Source: Tessaracoccus lacteus
GTDB lineage: Bacteria > Actinomycetota > Actinomycetes > Propionibacteriales > Propionibacteriaceae
Length of the DNA stretch: 64,000 bases
Reading direction: 5' to 3'
NCBI RefSeq assembly: GCF_029917005.1
Contig: NZ_CP123967.1
Location: 1,922,001-1,986,000 of the forward strand
Both the position numbers and the translations under genes were made by a program. Shown piece after piece: positions 10,127-33,189 of this stretch (position 1 is its first letter; every line of letters starts with the position of its first letter). The notes beneath the pieces are model-generated. The model searched no databases. It saw only the letters and a list, made by a program, of their open reading frames with translations, and was not told the DNA's origin.

Positions 10127-10214
10127 GTCCGGGTGGCGGAATAGGTAGACGCGCTAGCTTGAGGTGCTAGTGCCCGTTAAGGGCATGGAGGTTCAAGTCC
10201 TCTCTCGGACACCA
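10127..10214 (+). tRNA. tRNA-Leu (anticodon GAG), CCA encoded
   Basis: All arms can be folded by eye. The acceptor stem pairs 10127-10133 with 10204-10210 (one G-U pair). The anticodon stem is CTAGC/GCTAG around loop TTGAGGT, giving anticodon GAG. A long variable arm (about TGCCCGTTAAGGGCA) is typical of the type II leucine tRNA. The T arm reads GGAGG-TTCAAGT-CCTCT. The discriminator is A at 10211 and CCA is encoded at 10212-10214. It reads CUC and CUU codons. A terminator-like hairpin follows. Confidence 0.95.
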
Positions 10215-10402: not shown

Positions 10403-10453
10403 GTTCAATTTCAAGGCTTGTTCAGATATATTGAACGCATGGATCTTTTGAAC
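10403..10453 (+). promoter_or_regulatory. Candidate promoter with nested palindromic operator for the AbiE-like operon
   Basis: Four half-sites are arranged symmetrically about base 10428: GTTCA at 10403-10407 and 10420-10424, and its complement TGAAC at 10432-10436 and 10449-10453. Both pairs share the same centre and the half-sites are 17 bases apart on each side. A good -10 hexamer, TATATT (10427-10432), sits at the dyad centre, with a weak TTCAAT -35 at 10404-10409 and 17-base spacing. The expected transcription start is at or within a base of the ATG at 10439, so the message would be leaderless. AbiEi antitoxins of known type IV systems bind promoter inverted repeats and repress their own operon; the same is inferred here. 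Confidence 0.65.
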
Positions 10454-11449
10454 GCCAGTGGGGACCAGCTGGCACGCGATGTCCAGCGAGGTCTGGTCCG
10501 CGCTGGGCTCAGGGATGTCACCGCGCTGTCGGTGGACCCCAAGGCGGGGCGGCGACTCATCCTGCGCCGCGGACCCCATCTGTATCGGATGGAGGTCCGA
10601 CCGGCAGTCGGGCTCACCGAGGTCCCCTCCGCAGAACCGGGCTGGATCACGCTCGTCGTGGACAACCGGTTCGACGACACCAGAGCCCGACAGCTCACGG
10701 ACATGGGCGTGAGCTTCCTGGACGACCGAGGCAACGTCCATCTGGCCCTCGATGGAGCGACGGTCGCCCTCACGGCCGGCCGCACCGAGGCGCCAGTTGC
10801 TGCCCCCGCCGGCCCCGCAGGCCAACGGGGAGCAGACACACTTGCCCTGAACCGCGCCAGCCACCGGGTGGCCTTCGCACTGCTGTGCAGACCGACGTTG
10901 GCCGGGGGCCCGATCCGGGAGCTCGCCGCCGCCGCGAAGGTGTCCGTCGGCACCGTGCACAACACCCTGGCGCAACTTGCCTCCGCCGGATTCCTGCTTG
11001 ACGGAGACCTGCATGACACGGGCCGCCTGCTCGATACGTGGGCCGAGGCTTACCAACGGCTGACCGTTCGCTCCCTGAGCGACCGCGCCCTCTACGCGCC
11101 TGATGGGAACTGGCCAGGGGCCCTGGCCCAGGAGCCGCAGGACATGCTTCTCGGCGGCGCCGCGGCTGCGGCCCTTCTCGACGATCACTTCCGGGCCACG
11201 GACGGGCTCGTCTACACCGCCGAGCTCGGGCCGGCGGTGACCCGCCTGCGTCTGACAACCGCGGTGACCGCCTTCCCTGTCGAGGTCCGGCAGCGCTTCT
11301 GGGGCGACGGCCTGCCATCACCCCGGGCCGACCTGACGCCGTCGATCCTGATCTACGGTGATCTGCTCCGCGACAACGATGCCCGCTCCGTGGAGATGGC
11401 CGCCCGATTGAGGAGCAGCGATGCGCACCTTCGCACCCTTGACCGGTAG
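10439..11449 (+). CDS. AbiEi-like antitoxin/transcriptional regulator (type IV TA family)
   Basis: A 336-residue protein. An N-terminal half rich in beta strands (residues 1-130, with LDDRGNVHLAL) is followed by a winged helix-turn-helix at about 158-186 (IRELAAAAKVSVGTVHNTLA) and a C-terminal domain ending in PSILIYGDLLRDNDARSVEMA. This order matches the AbiEi_2-type antitoxins, although without a search I rate the family call as probable. I chose ATG 10439 because it directly follows a -10 hexamer and begins MDLLNASGDQLARD; an upstream in-frame extension to 10358 would lie in front of the promoter. It overlaps the next gene by 29 bases, typical of a TA pair. Predicted roles are autorepression and restraint of the partner nucleotidyltransferase. 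Confidence 0.7.
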   Translation: MDLLNASGDQLARDVQRGLVRAGLRDVTALSVDPKAGRRLILRRGPHLYRMEVRPAVGLTEVPSAEPGWITLVVDNRFDDTRARQLTDMGVSFLDDRGNVHLALDGATVALTAGRTEAPVAAPAGPAGQRGADTLALNRASHRVAFALLCRPTLAGGPIRELAAAAKVSVGTVHNTLAQLASAGFLLDGDLHDTGRLLDTWAEAYQRLTVRSLSDRALYAPDGNWPGALAQEPQDMLLGGAAAAALLDDHFRATDGLVYTAELGPAVTRLRLTTAVTAFPVEVRQRFWGDGLPSPRADLTPSILIYGDLLRDNDARSVEMAARLRSSDAHLRTLDR

Positions 11450-12203
11450 CGACCTGCCGGTCCCCGGCGATCTTCTCGACGCGCTGGTCGACGCCCTGGG
11501 CGCCCCCGGGAACTGGGTACTCATCGGCGCGACCGCTCGTGATCTCGCTCTGGTTCTCGGCCAGGTCTCGCTCCCCCGACGCGCCACCAACGACGTCGAC
11601 GTCGCCGTGGCCGCACTGGACGCGGTCGATTTCGACACGACGCTCGAGACCATCGGCGAGTCCACTCGCGCCTGGCAGCGCCGACGCTTGCTGGGGCACC
11701 AGGTCGACATCGTGCCGTTCGGACCTCTGGAGAGCGATGGCGAGGTCATCATCCACGAGGCGAGCCTCACGGTCATCGGCTGCGCGGAAGCTGCGGCATT
11801 CGCAGACCATGTGCGCCTGCCCTCGGGGAGACTGCTTCCCGTCGCCCCACTGGAGCTCATCTCCGTGCTGAAGCTCATCGCATTCGCAGAGCGCCAGCCG
11901 GCCCAGACCAAGGATGCCGACGATCTCCTGACCGTACTTCGAGCCGCGTCGGAGGGCAGCTACGGCGATGAGACCTGGGTCGATGCGGCATCCCTGGCCG
12001 CGACCGACTTCGATCACGAGCTCGCCAGCGCTCACCGGCTCGGCCGCCGGGCCATCTCATGCTTTTCCTCAGACCGCGCGGCCACATTGCTGATGGTGGC
12101 CAATCGCATCCAACCAGCCTTGCGACTCGCGTGGCGAGGGAAACACGACGCTCTCCTCGAGGCCTGGCTCGCGGGCATGAACACCCACGACCACACCCGC
12201 TGA
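11421..12203 (+). CDS. AbiEii-like nucleotidyltransferase (putative toxin of type IV TA pair)
   Basis: A 260-residue protein of the polymerase-beta nucleotidyltransferase superfamily. The sequence WVLIGATARDLAL (residues 32-44) takes the place of the canonical Gly-Ser loop. TNDVDVAVA supplies the paired acidic residues Asp58 and Asp60, and VDIVPFG at 95-101 supplies the third Asp (Asp96). AbiEii toxins transfer nucleotides to target RNA and cause growth arrest, protecting against phage; activity here is inferred. The Ser of the usual GS motif is replaced by Ala, as in many AbiEii-like proteins. The gene overlaps its partner by 29 bases and must be co-transcribed with it. Confidence 0.7.
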   Translation: MRTFAPLTGSDLPVPGDLLDALVDALGAPGNWVLIGATARDLALVLGQVSLPRRATNDVDVAVAALDAVDFDTTLETIGESTRAWQRRRLLGHQVDIVPFGPLESDGEVIIHEASLTVIGCAEAAAFADHVRLPSGRLLPVAPLELISVLKLIAFAERQPAQTKDADDLLTVLRAASEGSYGDETWVDAASLAATDFDHELASAHRLGRRAISCFSSDRAATLLMVANRIQPALRLAWRGKHDALLEAWLAGMNTHDHTR

Positions 12204-13501: not shown

Positions 13502-16500
13502 ATGGCGAATTTCGCGGACACCGCTGCTATCAACCTCCGCCTCGGGCTCCTCGGCATCCCCCTGCCTGACGAGGGGCTGGCCGGGCAGGCCGCCGATCTG
13601 GTGCGGCCCATCCTTGCCCGACAGCGTGAGCTCAGTCGTCGGCTGCAGAACCGGCTGCCCGCCGTGGATGCCCGGATCCAGACCTTCCTCGACGCTTATC
13701 TGGAGGGCACCGGCACCGCGCCGGCTCTGCCGCGCCAGACACTCGTGCTCGACCAGGCCGGACTTGCCCGGCAGATGAGCCTCCCCGTCGACGGGGACAC
13801 CTTCACCTCGGAGACCCTGTCGAGCTACCGGCTGGTCAACGGCATCCTGCACAACCCCGCCAACGACCGCCGCACCACCAAGGGCGTCTTCCACATTGCC
13901 GAGGGTGGCCTGCCCATCCAGGACGACAAGCTCGCCGTCCCCCGCGCCGTGTTCGGCAGGCTGCTGGAGCACGCCTTCAACCCGCCCGCGGACTCCATGG
14001 TCCTGCCCTACACGTCCGCGCAGGAACCCCAGCCTCGCTGCTGGGTCTCGCTGCTGCTGCGCCCCGTCGTCGTGCCCAACGTGCCGGGCTACACCGACGA
14101 GGTGTCGATGGAGACGCGCTTCTTCGCGCCCGCGACTCTGATGGCCAACCTCGACTTCGTCGAGGGGATCTTCCGCAACGGCGGGGACCCGTACCTGCCC
14201 GAGAACGACGCCTCCCTGAACCCCGAGTCGTGGACGGGCCACTCGGGCCTGGTCGTGCTGGCGCCGCACCTCACGAAGCTCACGAAGAAGGAGCTCGGGC
14301 TCCCCCACGTCGACGACGCCACCGAGCGCCAGAAGCGCGACGGCATGTGCTGGAGCGACCCCGAGGAGCGCTACAACGGCGGCTCCGCGTTCAAGGCGTG
14401 CGCGCGCGACGAGCGCGGCGTGATCGTCACGGTGATCGCCGACAACTACTTCGGCTACTGCAAGAAGGAGGTCAAGGCCCAGATCAGCTACTCGGCCAAC
14501 CTCCTCGGCCGCGTCGAGGAGGAGCACTCGGGCGGCGCCATCGCCTTCCCCCGCTACAACCTCGGCCAGACGTTCACCGACAAGTACGCCGACCCGAGCT
14601 ACACCATCGACGAGGTCATCGCCCGCGACGCCGACCGGTTCGAGCAGCAGGCCGAGGGCCACGCCATCGACCTCGAGCACCCCGACGTCGTGCTCGTGCC
14701 CGAGCGCTCCACCTTCTCGCTGCGCGACCTCTCGGTCACCTGGGAGCGGGGCGGCGAGCAGTTCAGCATCCCGCTGCGCGCCGCGACCCACTACATCGGC
14801 CCCGACGGATACATCGTCGAGCTGACACACCTGGCGGCCGACGGTGAGCAGTGGACCCTGGTGGGCACCTCCCCCGTCGCCACCTCCTGCCACAAGCCCG
14901 CCACGGTCTCGGGCGGCGGCAAGTCGGAGATCTCCAAGTCCATCACCGACGCGTTCGTGCAGGGCAACGCGTACATCGCGGACTTCGCCGACGACATGGC
15001 CAAGGTCGCCGACATCATCGACCGCGACTACTCCACCAGGTTCATCCAGCCGCCTGACAAGGACAGCCGGCCGCTGCTGTCGGACGCCCGCAGCGTCGGG
15101 TCCGTCATCAAGCTGTTGACCCCGTCGGACGAGTACACGCAGGAGTACAACGCGTGGCTCGAGAGCATCGAGCATCACATCAAGGAACTGGTCTTCGTCG
15201 TCAAGCGGTTCTACCGCCCCGAGTGGGGCGGCGACTGGGCCAGCCACTTCTCCGTCGGCCGCATCAACGGCCGCGCCGGGCACGCCCTCCGCCTCGACGG
15301 CGACAAGATCGTCGTGAACATGCTGCGCGTCGGCTTCGCCCCCGACGGCTCCTGGCGCCTGTTCGGCCTGCGGCACGACTTCCACCCCGCGGCCAAGGTA
15401 CAGACCGAGGACGACATTACCGCCAGCATCGTGGTGCCGGGAGCCGTGGCCGGGCGCGAGGACGGGCTCTCGCGCAAGTACGTCACCAACTGCGAGCAGT
15501 TGCTGTTCCAGCGCCCCGACGACGCCATCCACCGCGGCTACGACAAGCAGGCGGAGGCGGACATCGCCGGCGGCCCATTCCTGAGCAACTTCGAGCCGCT
15601 GACCACCAAGGACGCCCGTGCCCTCGTGGAAGACGCCATCGCGTTCTCGCAGTTCACGCGTCCGATGCAGGACCTCATCCGCCAGGTCGCCGACGGCCAC
15701 GCGAAGGCCCCGTTCTTCGTCAGCTCCGCGAACCCGCGCATCGTGAACGGCGCCAGGTCCAAGAACCCCCGCTACCTGCAGGTGCGCCCCGACCACTCCC
15801 GCCCCGACGAGACCGCGCTGGCGGACCTCGCGGCCCACATGTTCCGCAGGCTGCCCGTGTCGGCGGATCTTCGGCTCCCCGTCGACGTGGTGGCGGCGGG
15901 CCGCCGCAACAACGCCGCGGAGGAGGGCGTGCCGCCGCTGTGCTGCTACGCGCCGCTGCACTACCTGGAGCTGCCGGAGCTCTTCATGGAGTTCATCTCG
16001 TCGATGACCGGCAAGTCGCCGTCGACGACCGGGGCCGGCTCCGAGGGCGCCATGACGAAGGGGCCTTTCAACGCGCTTCCATCGGTCGTCGACCTCAACG
16101 CGGCCTTCCTGTCCTTCGCGCTGACCGGCTACGACGGCTGGCTGTCGTCCGCCGGCGTGATCGGTCCCAGCGTCCGCGTCGACCACGACATCTCGCTGCT
16201 GATCCCGGAGCTGTTCTCGCGCATGTCCCCCGCAGAGCGCAGCGCGGCCCACCTGATCGAGGAGGGCGCCCTGGAGCGCATCGGCGACTTCCGCGCCGGC
16301 GACGAGCTGATCGAGGCGAGCCGGCTCGGGTACCGCATCACGGAGCGGTTCCAGACGAAGTACTTCGGCCGCATCTTCATGCACCCGCACGTGGTGTTCA
16401 CGGAGAACATGCTGCGCCCGGAGCTGCAGGACGAGGCCGCCTACGCCGAGTCCGTCCGCACGATCGTCACGACGCATCAGCGGGTGGCGCAGTCGTACTT

Positions 16501-16882
16501 CGACGACGGCACCATCGCCCTGGCCGTCCCGCCGCTGAAGGCGCTGCTGGAGATCATGGCCCACGGCGCCTCATCGGAGGGGTGGACGCTGGCGGACCCG
16601 GAGTTCCGGGCGCTGTTCGACCGCGAGACCGTGCTGGCGTCCGCCTGGTACGCCGAGCGGCTGCTGACGCAGGCGAACCAGATGGCCCTGCACGCGGAGC
16701 GGGCCGTGGGTGCGATGAAGCGGTTCGTGGAGGAGCCGACCAACGCGGCCGCGGCCGCGCGGCTCGGGATCGTGGAGAAGATCTCCGCGATGCAGTCCGC
16801 CCTGGCGGACGCCAGTTCCCCGGAGGCGCCGGAGCGCCTGAAGGGAACGCTGGGGAGGCAGGTCAGCTGGCGGCTCGGCTGA
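13502..16882 (+). CDS. Putative pyrophosphate-type phosphoenolpyruvate carboxykinase
   Basis: A very large single-chain protein of 1126 residues. Size and sequence style match the PPi-dependent PEP carboxykinase described from Propionibacterium freudenreichii and Entamoeba (about 130 kDa), which interconverts PEP + CO2 + Pi and oxaloacetate + PPi. A PEPCK-like phosphate-binding loop is visible at about residues 466-480 (KPATVSGGGKSEISKS). Other dense motifs include RFYRPEWGGDW near 577 and NPRIVNGARSKNPRYLQVRP near 745. No separate ATP/GTP adenine-binding insert can be identified by eye. CATAGT (13491-13496) sits 11 bases before the ATG with no proper Shine-Dalgarno, so a leaderless message is possible. 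The 3' end overlaps the convergent HAD gene by 20 bases. The assignment is from memory of the family. Confidence 0.78.
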   Translation: MANFADTAAINLRLGLLGIPLPDEGLAGQAADLVRPILARQRELSRRLQNRLPAVDARIQTFLDAYLEGTGTAPALPRQTLVLDQAGLARQMSLPVDGDTFTSETLSSYRLVNGILHNPANDRRTTKGVFHIAEGGLPIQDDKLAVPRAVFGRLLEHAFNPPADSMVLPYTSAQEPQPRCWVSLLLRPVVVPNVPGYTDEVSMETRFFAPATLMANLDFVEGIFRNGGDPYLPENDASLNPESWTGHSGLVVLAPHLTKLTKKELGLPHVDDATERQKRDGMCWSDPEERYNGGSAFKACARDERGVIVTVIADNYFGYCKKEVKAQISYSANLLGRVEEEHSGGAIAFPRYNLGQTFTDKYADPSYTIDEVIARDADRFEQQAEGHAIDLEHPDVVLVPERSTFSLRDLSVTWERGGEQFSIPLRAATHYIGPDGYIVELTHLAADGEQWTLVGTSPVATSCHKPATVSGGGKSEISKSITDAFVQGNAYIADFADDMAKVADIIDRDYSTRFIQPPDKDSRPLLSDARSVGSVIKLLTPSDEYTQEYNAWLESIEHHIKELVFVVKRFYRPEWGGDWASHFSVGRINGRAGHALRLDGDKIVVNMLRVGFAPDGSWRLFGLRHDFHPAAKVQTEDDITASIVVPGAVAGREDGLSRKYVTNCEQLLFQRPDDAIHRGYDKQAEADIAGGPFLSNFEPLTTKDARALVEDAIAFSQFTRPMQDLIRQVADGHAKAPFFVSSANPRIVNGARSKNPRYLQVRPDHSRPDETALADLAAHMFRRLPVSADLRLPVDVVAAGRRNNAAEEGVPPLCCYAPLHYLELPELFMEFISSMTGKSPSTTGAGSEGAMTKGPFNALPSVVDLNAAFLSFALTGYDGWLSSAGVIGPSVRVDHDISLLIPELFSRMSPAERSAAHLIEEGALERIGDFRAGDELIEASRLGYRITERFQTKYFGRIFMHPHVVFTENMLRPELQDEAAYAESVRTIVTTHQRVAQSYFDDGTIALAVPPLKALLEIMAHGASSEGWTLADPEFRALFDRETVLASAWYAERLLTQANQMALHAERAVGAMKRFVEEPTNAAAAARLGIVEKISAMQSALADASSPEAPERLKGTLGRQVSWRLG

Positions 16883-31971: not shown

Positions 31972-33189
31972 TCACTCGCCGAGGATGCCTGCGACGAATC
32001 CCTCGGCGTCGAAGGGCGCGAGGTCGTCGACGCCCTCGCCGAGCCCGACGAGCTTGACGGGGACGCCGAGCTCGCGCTGCACCTGCACGACGATGCCGCC
32101 CTTGGCGGAGCCGTCGAGCTTGGTCAGCACGATGCCGGTGACGTCGACCACCTCGGCGAAGATGCGGGCCTGCGTCATGCCGTTCTGGCCGGTGGTCGCG
32201 TCGAGGACGAGCAGCACCTCGGTGACGGGTGCCTTCTTCTCGATGACGCGCTTGACTTTGCCGAGCTCGTCCATCAGGCCCGTCTTGGTGTGCAGGCGGC
32301 CGGCGGTGTCGACCAGGACGACATCGGTGCCGTCGGCGGCGCCCTTCGCGACCGCGTCGAAGGCGACGGAGGCGGGGTCGGCCCCGTCGACGTCGCTGCG
32401 GACGGTCTCGACGCCGACGCGATCGCCCCAGGTGGCGAGCTGCTCAGCGGCGGCTGCGCGGAAGGTGTCGGCAGCGCCGAGCACGACGGTCTTCCCCTCC
32501 GCGACGAGCACGCGGGCAAGCTTGCCGACCGTGGTGGTCTTGCCGGTGCCGTTGACGCCGACGACCATCACGACGGCGGGGTCGCCCTCGACCGCCGGGG
32601 TCAGGTTGAGGGAACGGTCGAGCGTGGGGTCGACGAGCTTGATCAGTTCGGCGCGCAGGATCTCGCGGGCGCGCTCCGGGTCGGCGATGCCGTCGATCGC
32701 CAGCTGCGAGCGGAGCGCCTCGGTGAGCTCGGTGGCGGGTCCGACGCCCAGGTCGGAGGTGATGAGCGTGGACTCGAAGTCGTCCCACACGTCCGCGTCG
32801 AGGCGGTCGACGCTCAGCAGCTCGGACAGGGCCCTGGCCAGCGCGTTGTTGCTGCCGGCCAGCCGACGACGCAGGCGCGCCCAGCGGCTGACGGGCGCCT
32901 CCGGGGTCTCGAGGGCGGGAGTCTCAGGCTCGGCATCGACCTCGGGCTCGACGACCACGTCGGGGGAGGTCGGGGTTACCGGCTCCGCGGGCGCGACGGG
33001 CGTGGGCGCCGGGACGGCGGGCGTCTCGACGGTGGGAGCCACGACCACAGGCTCGTCCTCCGTGGTCGGCGTCAGCTCACCGCGGGATGAGCCCTCGAGT
33101 TCCTGCCTGCGCTGCTCGCGGTAGACGACGATGCCGCCCACGATCAGCGCGACTCCGATGACGGCGAGCATTACCCAGAAGATCCACAC
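31972..33189 (-). CDS. ftsY: Signal recognition particle receptor FtsY
   Basis: A 405-residue SRP receptor. The N-terminus has a real transmembrane helix (residues 2-22, WIFWVMLAVIGVALIVGGIV), then an acidic Pro/Val/Thr/Glu-rich A domain to about 100, then the NG domain with P-loop GVNGTGKTTTVGKLA near 209, DTAGRL and TKLDGSAKGG. The membrane anchor is typical of actinobacterial FtsY. The GTG start lies 12 bases after a TAGGAT hexamer (complement of 33196-33201), suggesting a leaderless message. Confidence 0.95.
   Translation of the reverse strand: MWIFWVMLAVIGVALIVGGIVVYREQRRQELEGSSRGELTPTTEDEPVVVAPTVETPAVPAPTPVAPAEPVTPTSPDVVVEPEVDAEPETPALETPEAPVSRWARLRRRLAGSNNALARALSELLSVDRLDADVWDDFESTLITSDLGVGPATELTEALRSQLAIDGIADPERAREILRAELIKLVDPTLDRSLNLTPAVEGDPAVVMVVGVNGTGKTTTVGKLARVLVAEGKTVVLGAADTFRAAAAEQLATWGDRVGVETVRSDVDGADPASVAFDAVAKGAADGTDVVLVDTAGRLHTKTGLMDELGKVKRVIEKKAPVTEVLLVLDATTGQNGMTQARIFAEVVDVTGIVLTKLDGSAKGGIVVQVQRELGVPVKLVGLGEGVDDLAPFDAEGFVAGILGE

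Follow-up and report, generated by a model that had tools for sequence, protein, structure and literature searches.

What is a nested palindrome of four identical half-sites doing across the start of a presumed toxin-antitoxin (TA) operon? The question is raised by positions 10403-10453 of a 64,000-nucleotide stretch of the Tessaracoccus lacteus genome (hereafter, the window), where the element runs into the gene of an AbiEi_2-type antitoxin that is followed by the gene of a nucleotidyltransferase. Comparative evidence indicates that the element is real and suggests that it is functional. It is very probably the operator by which an AbiE-type (type IV-like) TA operon regulates itself, and four antitoxin winged helices would be seated on its four half-sites. 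Conservation, near-fixed spacing, concerted change of the half-sites (accompanied at three loci by changes in winged-helix residues) and association with the gene pair, all drawn from sequence comparison, argue for an operator. Binding and any cooperativity in it, repression by the antitoxin of its own promoter, the number of four chains and the leaderless start are what we infer.

The element reads GTTCA-N12-GTTCA-N7-TGAAC-N12-TGAAC, spans 51 bp and is symmetric about base 10428. Pattern matching confirmed the half-site positions and the 17 bp per side that an earlier note on this DNA had given. The exact pattern occurs once in the 64-kb window and in none of 100 dinucleotide shuffles, and base composition predicts 1.9e-9 matches per window. 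In the whole 3.05 Mb genome, with up to three mismatches allowed, it is the only site. When the half-site was left free to be any 5-mer in 18 x 20 symmetric geometries, only two perfect four-site palindromes were obtained in the 64 kb, the second being a G+C-rich one at 32331; thus, the palindrome is not an artefact of trying many shapes.

Is the element kept in related genomes? A family search of 198 genomes provided, besides the window, eight loci with an identity of 58% or more across part or all of the protein. Five of these (L010-L014) are intact orthologues, 58-60% identical in alignment A1. All five carry the exact four-site pattern (hereafter, the quad) at identical spacing, with a central TATATT that is followed six bases on by ATG or GTG, so the comparison of homologous promoters that the earlier note had proposed as a check turned out in favour of its half-sites. 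Among the other loci, L015 is a truncated gene that matches only from residue 41 onward and has no operator (best 12/20 half-site letters), L016 is cut off by a contig end, and L017, of the same genus, is a broken gene with a degenerate, decayed site, its second piece being L027.

The rightmost half-site does fall within the coding sequence, as had been claimed, and codons 3-5 of the antitoxin under it are CTT TTG AAC (L3 L4 N5). Because this half-site is coding, protein conservation could mimic its conservation. The half-sites might then be kept merely through the underlying coding sequence and the promoter hexamers, with part of L-L-N encoded on the right and the presumed -10 at the centre; such an explanation is hardly credible, since the synonymous sites of codons 3-5 are preserved as well. 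All six genes have TTG as codon 4 and AAC as codon 5, and five of them have CTT as codon 3, where the sixth has ATT. Of the 269 leucine codons in five open reading frames (ORFs) of the window, 16 are CTT and 11 are TTG, and a single codon is used in all six genes at just 4 of 35 invariant leucine columns. This usage favours a constraint at the DNA level, though it is not proof alone. Further, the distance from quad to start varies widely in other homologues, and all four half-sites change together. Conservation from coding and promoter alone is thus already contradicted by the codon, distance and concerted-change evidence.

The linkage of the element to its gene pair extends well beyond close relatives. 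The window protein matches PF09952 (AbiEi_2) at 50 bits against a cut-off of 21, over residues 191-324, which upholds its description as AbiEi-like. The exact pattern was found at 15 sites in 13 of the 198 family genomes, with none for the reversed control, and 13 of these 15 sites are located at an AbiEi_2 and nucleotidyltransferase pair. For a choice independent of the operator, 100 loci were taken from protein or Pfam searches. Twelve were unusable (four at edges, three duplicates, five without a profile hit) and eight (L310-L317) were set aside, as their genomes or records had been chosen for a quad, leaving 80 with the window included. An operator was called at 16 or more of the 20 half-site letters and a strong homologue at a profile score of at least 180. 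Among the 80 protein-found loci, 32 have perfect quads and 47 reach at least 16/20; the shuffle mean is 11.1, and none of 200 shuffles equals any of the 47 scores. An operator is present at 47 of the 54 strong homologues. Homologues other than the close orthologues share 18-32% identity with the window protein (alignment A2), and quads are seen across Actinomycetota, Bacteroidota, Pseudomonadota and other phyla. The geometry that had been called distinctive is therefore real and far more widespread than was supposed. A second operator (at least 17/20) lies 59-131 bp away in 18 of the 80 listed AbiEi_2 loci selected by their quad.

What kind of protein surface would read the four boxes? With the half-site left free, 44 of the 80 protein-found loci have a self-consistent quad of at least 18/20. 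In some loci, all four boxes have changed to the same variant, which is GGTCA in L020, GTACA in L359 and TTTCC in L025, while L026 has TTTCT three times and TTTCC once. Since the half-sites change in concert, a single kind of protein domain most likely reads all four, and the changes are compatible with four winged helices. The variants are accompanied by changes in the protein in alignment A2. At position 160, all 71 GTTCA-type proteins, which include pattern-selected loci, have R, and both GGTCA-type proteins (L005 and L020) have E. Position 170, where the recognition helix begins, is occupied by L, V or I in 68 of the 71, by K in both GGTCA types and by H in the GTACA type. The TTTCC and TTTCT types are outside this alignment.

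AbiEi of S. agalactiae and Rv2827c of M. tuberculosis bind inverted repeats in their own promoters, leading to repression (PMC3985639, PMC7319586). Both of these characterised proteins are described as monomers (PMC7319586), and the 'dimer pair' of the earlier note finds no support there. S. agalactiae AbiEi binds as monomers to two 23-bp inverted repeats with 3 bp between them, 49 bp in total against 51 bp here (PMC7319586, PMC3985639). Two chains might likewise suffice in the window, one monomer on each 22-bp arm with its winged helix on the outer box and another surface on the inner one. We hold this to be distinctly unlikely, as the inner and outer boxes are identical and co-vary (GGTCA, GTACA or TTTCC, four times each), pointing to one domain for all four, and as the predicted structure has one winged helix per chain.

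Four chains on four boxes remain the preferred arrangement, and it differs from both known operators. As in S. agalactiae AbiE (COG5340-COG2253), the antitoxin gene comes first and the nucleotidyltransferase toxin gene second, and the operator is about 50 bp long (PMC3985639, PMC7319586). However, the S. agalactiae repeat, TGTTGCTTTTA-N27-TAAAAGCAACA, starts with TGTT and, as given in these sources, has its box at the outer ends only, with no inner copies in the arms. Its mapped start has a ribosome site, whereas that of the window is presumed leaderless, and its winged helix is N-terminal, whereas that of the window protein is central, after an extra domain. In place of the 23-bp inverted repeats of the COG5340 type, the window has four GTTCA boxes at 17/12/17 bp. 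Since the S. agalactiae repeat lacks inner copies and its winged helix is N-terminal, the window system is AbiE-like in organisation and presumed action and stands outside the COG5340-type AbiEi group. Rv2827c likewise has four sites in an AbiE-family promoter that is autorepressed, but these are 23-bp repeats, arranged as tandem pairs across 131 bp, that differ in affinity and show negative cooperativity (PMC7319586), in contrast to four short identical boxes nested on a single centre within 51 bp. There is a second AbiE branch, COG4861-COG4849, in which the regulator gene precedes a DUF1814 toxin gene (PMC3985639). The window pair may belong to it; no operator for this branch was found in the literature searched.

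The -10 hexamer had been placed exactly at the centre of symmetry. A TATATT does lie near it, at 10427-10432, but the midpoint of this hexamer misses the true centre by 1.5 bp. TATATT-N6-ATG/GTG is conserved in the window and the five orthologues, as a leaderless gene would show, and a leaderless start is likely for this clade only. In distant homologues the gene start is placed elsewhere relative to the operator, and the first possible start codon occurs at varied offsets from the quad centre among the 80 listed AbiEi_2 genome loci selected by their quad. In the mechanism we propose, four chains of the antitoxin, with one winged-helix domain each, would settle on the four GTTCA half-sites, two of which form an inner inverted pair 12 bp apart while the other two each lie 17 bp outward. 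Once in place, the protein would mask -35, -10 and start codon together, and the promoter of antitoxin and toxin would be shut off until the antitoxin level falls.

Quads are not confined to AbiEi_2 genes. A pattern scan of an 84,980-species collection returned at least 119 stretches, of which 80 have an AbiEi_2 ORF at the quad and 39 do not. Two of these orphan loci (L056 and L162) are edge cases whose genomes carry AbiEi_2 at the same operator sequence. The quad centre falls in an ORF of at least 90 aa in 25 of the 118 genome stretches listed, against 97.8 expected from ORF coverage. A search of 36 genomes of the 39 orphan loci found no PF09952 match in 29, and two others are the edge cases. 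The genomes of L072, L099, L129 and L148 have an AbiEi_2 elsewhere with its own, different quad, and that of L101 has a weak PF09952 match without a quad. Orphan operators of the chromosomal kind are seen in L043 (G013) and L054 (G139), both at 1501, as well as in these four, and the genome of L054 also holds an AbiEi_2 with its own quad elsewhere. The orphans L054, L072, L099, L129 and L148 may be trans targets of the antitoxin. Several bacterial orphan quads are near other TA or defence-like genes, which we take to be HipB-like (L072, L079, L103), Fic-like (L080, L102) and DUF6088-like (L070).

In a viral collection, the same pattern was present in at least 120 stretches (L174-L293) and the reversed pattern in none. 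When the spacing was set to 16 bp or 18 bp, 5 and 11 viral stretches were obtained, and these variants also resemble real sites. The centres of the N11/N13 sites are in an ORF in 4 of 16 cases against 12.8 expected. The viral sites are mostly intergenic, with 18 of 103 distinct quad centres in an ORF of at least 90 aa against 73.8 expected. In each of 38 longer viral records searched whole, the perfect quad occurs once and no more; an additional match in four of them either overlaps the quad (two mismatches) or is distant (three mismatches). In 37 of the 38, which may be fragments, no AbiEi_2 was found.

An RNA hairpin, as in an attenuator or terminator, would also be palindromic, and whole-arm perfect inverted repeats do exist in the orphans L076, L087, L133, L137 and, from the viral set, L199, as well as in at least one AbiEi-linked operator (L362). 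A hairpin is very improbable all the same, because the spacing is held at 17 bp, as the viral counts at the three spacings indicate, because complementarity across the full 12 arm positions is limited to 4 of the 119 genome stretches listed and 1 of the 120 viral ones, and because the presumed promoter lies inside the element.

Who reads the orphan copies? The quad could be a site type for several unrelated regulators, with AbiEi_2 as one user and another protein at the orphans. The 39 genome stretches lacking an AbiEi_2 ORF, the 29 genomes lacking any PF09952 match, the presumed HipB-like, Fic-like and DUF6088-like neighbours, and the viral stretches, where AbiEi_2 stands beside the quad in only one (L247) and was not found in 119 of the 120 listed, would suit such a view. 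It is nonetheless rather unlikely in our estimation. Scored with the AbiEi-operator matrix, the 33 letters in and beside the pattern gaps, which were not selected for, exceed the mean of 200 self-permutations at all 39 orphan genomic sites and all 103 distinct viral sites, indicating nearly the same DNA-binding surface, and 13 of the 15 family sites sit at AbiEi_2. T/A flanks are similar too (266/316 for AbiEi, 127/156 for orphan and 318/412 for viral sites). As both the unselected letters and the flanks match AbiEi operators, the reader of the viral sites would have, or imitate, an AbiEi_2-like surface.

The copies in phages show turnover. In ten loci sharing one structural gene, the quad is in the same gap in only two (L371 and L372, already found by the scan), which are 63% identical over the structural protein and have diverged spacers. 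The other eight have none (best 12-14/20), and L373 and L374, at 63-65%, have a short gap there. Out of 298 terminase relatives, 80 were fetched and 69 had enough upstream DNA; six of the 69 have the quad, two of them already known, and L392, L397 and L416 have its left part only. The viral sites are gained or lost quickly, as would be expected under changing selection, though mobile or neutral origins are also possible. A tentative proposal, which we regard as doubtful yet worth stating, is that in several phage lineages one perfect AbiEi_2 operator, placed between genes, serves as a mimic that captures the antitoxin-repressor of the infected host. A related idea is the binding of a promoter-like sequence at an origin of transfer (oriT) by AbiEi of an S. 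suis element (PMC11062541).

Several observations weigh against an AbiEi_2 operator as proposed here. None of the 26 weak homologues reaches 16/20, and 7 of the 54 strong ones (L005, L015, L036, L354, L355, L356, L364) are without a clear GTTCA quad, L005 having a degenerate GGTCA version instead. The right arm is one base shorter or longer in L347, L348, L349, L351 and L367, and in L019. A simple consensus scan gave no sigma-70 promoter at the operator. From codon 9 on, the six genes hold 36 CTT and 32 TTG among 290 leucine codons, and since both are commoner there, the window figures make the codon argument look stronger than it is. The residue correlation involves three variant proteins, two of which are 57% identical. 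Lastly, orphan copies without any AbiEi_2 match leave room for other readers.

The features are collected in the table. The antitoxin is predicted (mean predicted local distance difference test score, pLDDT, 86.8) to have an N-terminal domain, a central winged helix and a C-terminal AbiEi_2 domain, with a separate domain of about 110 residues before the winged helix. This N-terminal domain comprises residues 5-111 (10451-10771). In the family it has a D...ExK consensus, which we take to resemble restriction-endonuclease folds; since the window copy reads EVR, its domain is probably inactive. The two genes overlap at 11421-11449, in the antitoxin-then-toxin order of an AbiE operon. The toxin has a MenT-like fold, although Foldseek gave no match below E 0.001, the best being MenT1 at 0.001. 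It has no Pfam match, PF08843 included, and in this it differs from the MenT and DUF1814 toxins; five of six toxin homologues match PF08843, three of them above the cut-off. Out of 146 ORFs downstream of homologous antitoxins (protein-found and quad-found loci mixed, with some duplicates), 135 form one family, and 120 of these overlap the antitoxin stop. A tRNA-Leu(gag) lies directly upstream of the gene pair, at 10127-10214, and also upstream of the broken same-genus copy (L017 1971-2056). It is a possible island insertion site; a repeated tRNA end was not found in the window. Downstream, 13502-16882 is a long ORF of 1126 aa with no Pfam match at E 0.1.

Table. Features of the four-box element and its gene pair, in window coordinates
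Feature	Position	Strand	Remarks
Outer left half-site, GTTCA	10403..10407	+	Overlaps presumed -35; present in 5/5 intact orthologues
Presumed -35, TTCAAT	10404..10409	+	17 bp spacer; 3/6 letters agree with TTGACA
Inner left half-site, GTTCA	10420..10424	+	17 bp from outer left half-site
Presumed -10, TATATT	10427..10432	+	Near operator centre; TATATT-N6-(A/G)TG kept in 6/6 close loci, window included
Inner right half-site (TGAAC on +)	10432..10436	-	Conserved in orthologues
Start codon, ATG	10439..10441	+	6 nt 3' of -10; position kept in 6/6 close loci, window included
Outer right half-site (TGAAC on +)	10449..10453	-	Within codons 4-5 of the 10439-11449 gene
AbiEi_2-type antitoxin, presumed autorepressor gene	10439..11449	+	336 aa; PF09952 at residues 191-324
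Winged-helix DNA-binding region	10853..11002	+	Residues 139-188
MenT-like nucleotidyltransferase, presumed toxin gene	11421..12203	+	260 aa; overlaps antitoxin stop

In the literature searched, autoregulation by AbiEi has few examples, with different operators. The 17-12-17 bp four-box operator would be a new variant of AbiE-type autoregulation, and the novelty lies in the orphan viral copies. The natural box variants, three of them with changes at two protein residues, offer a code for testing DNA recognition and the number of chains. If phages do carry the site as a mimic, titration would disarm or trip the TA system and would provide the connection that is still missing from infection to AbiE-type responses; with orphan copies in virus-like contigs and chromosomes, any link of phage infection to these systems becomes directly testable. 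The element is widespread and under tight constraint, and the antitoxin probably docks on it to silence the operon that encodes it.
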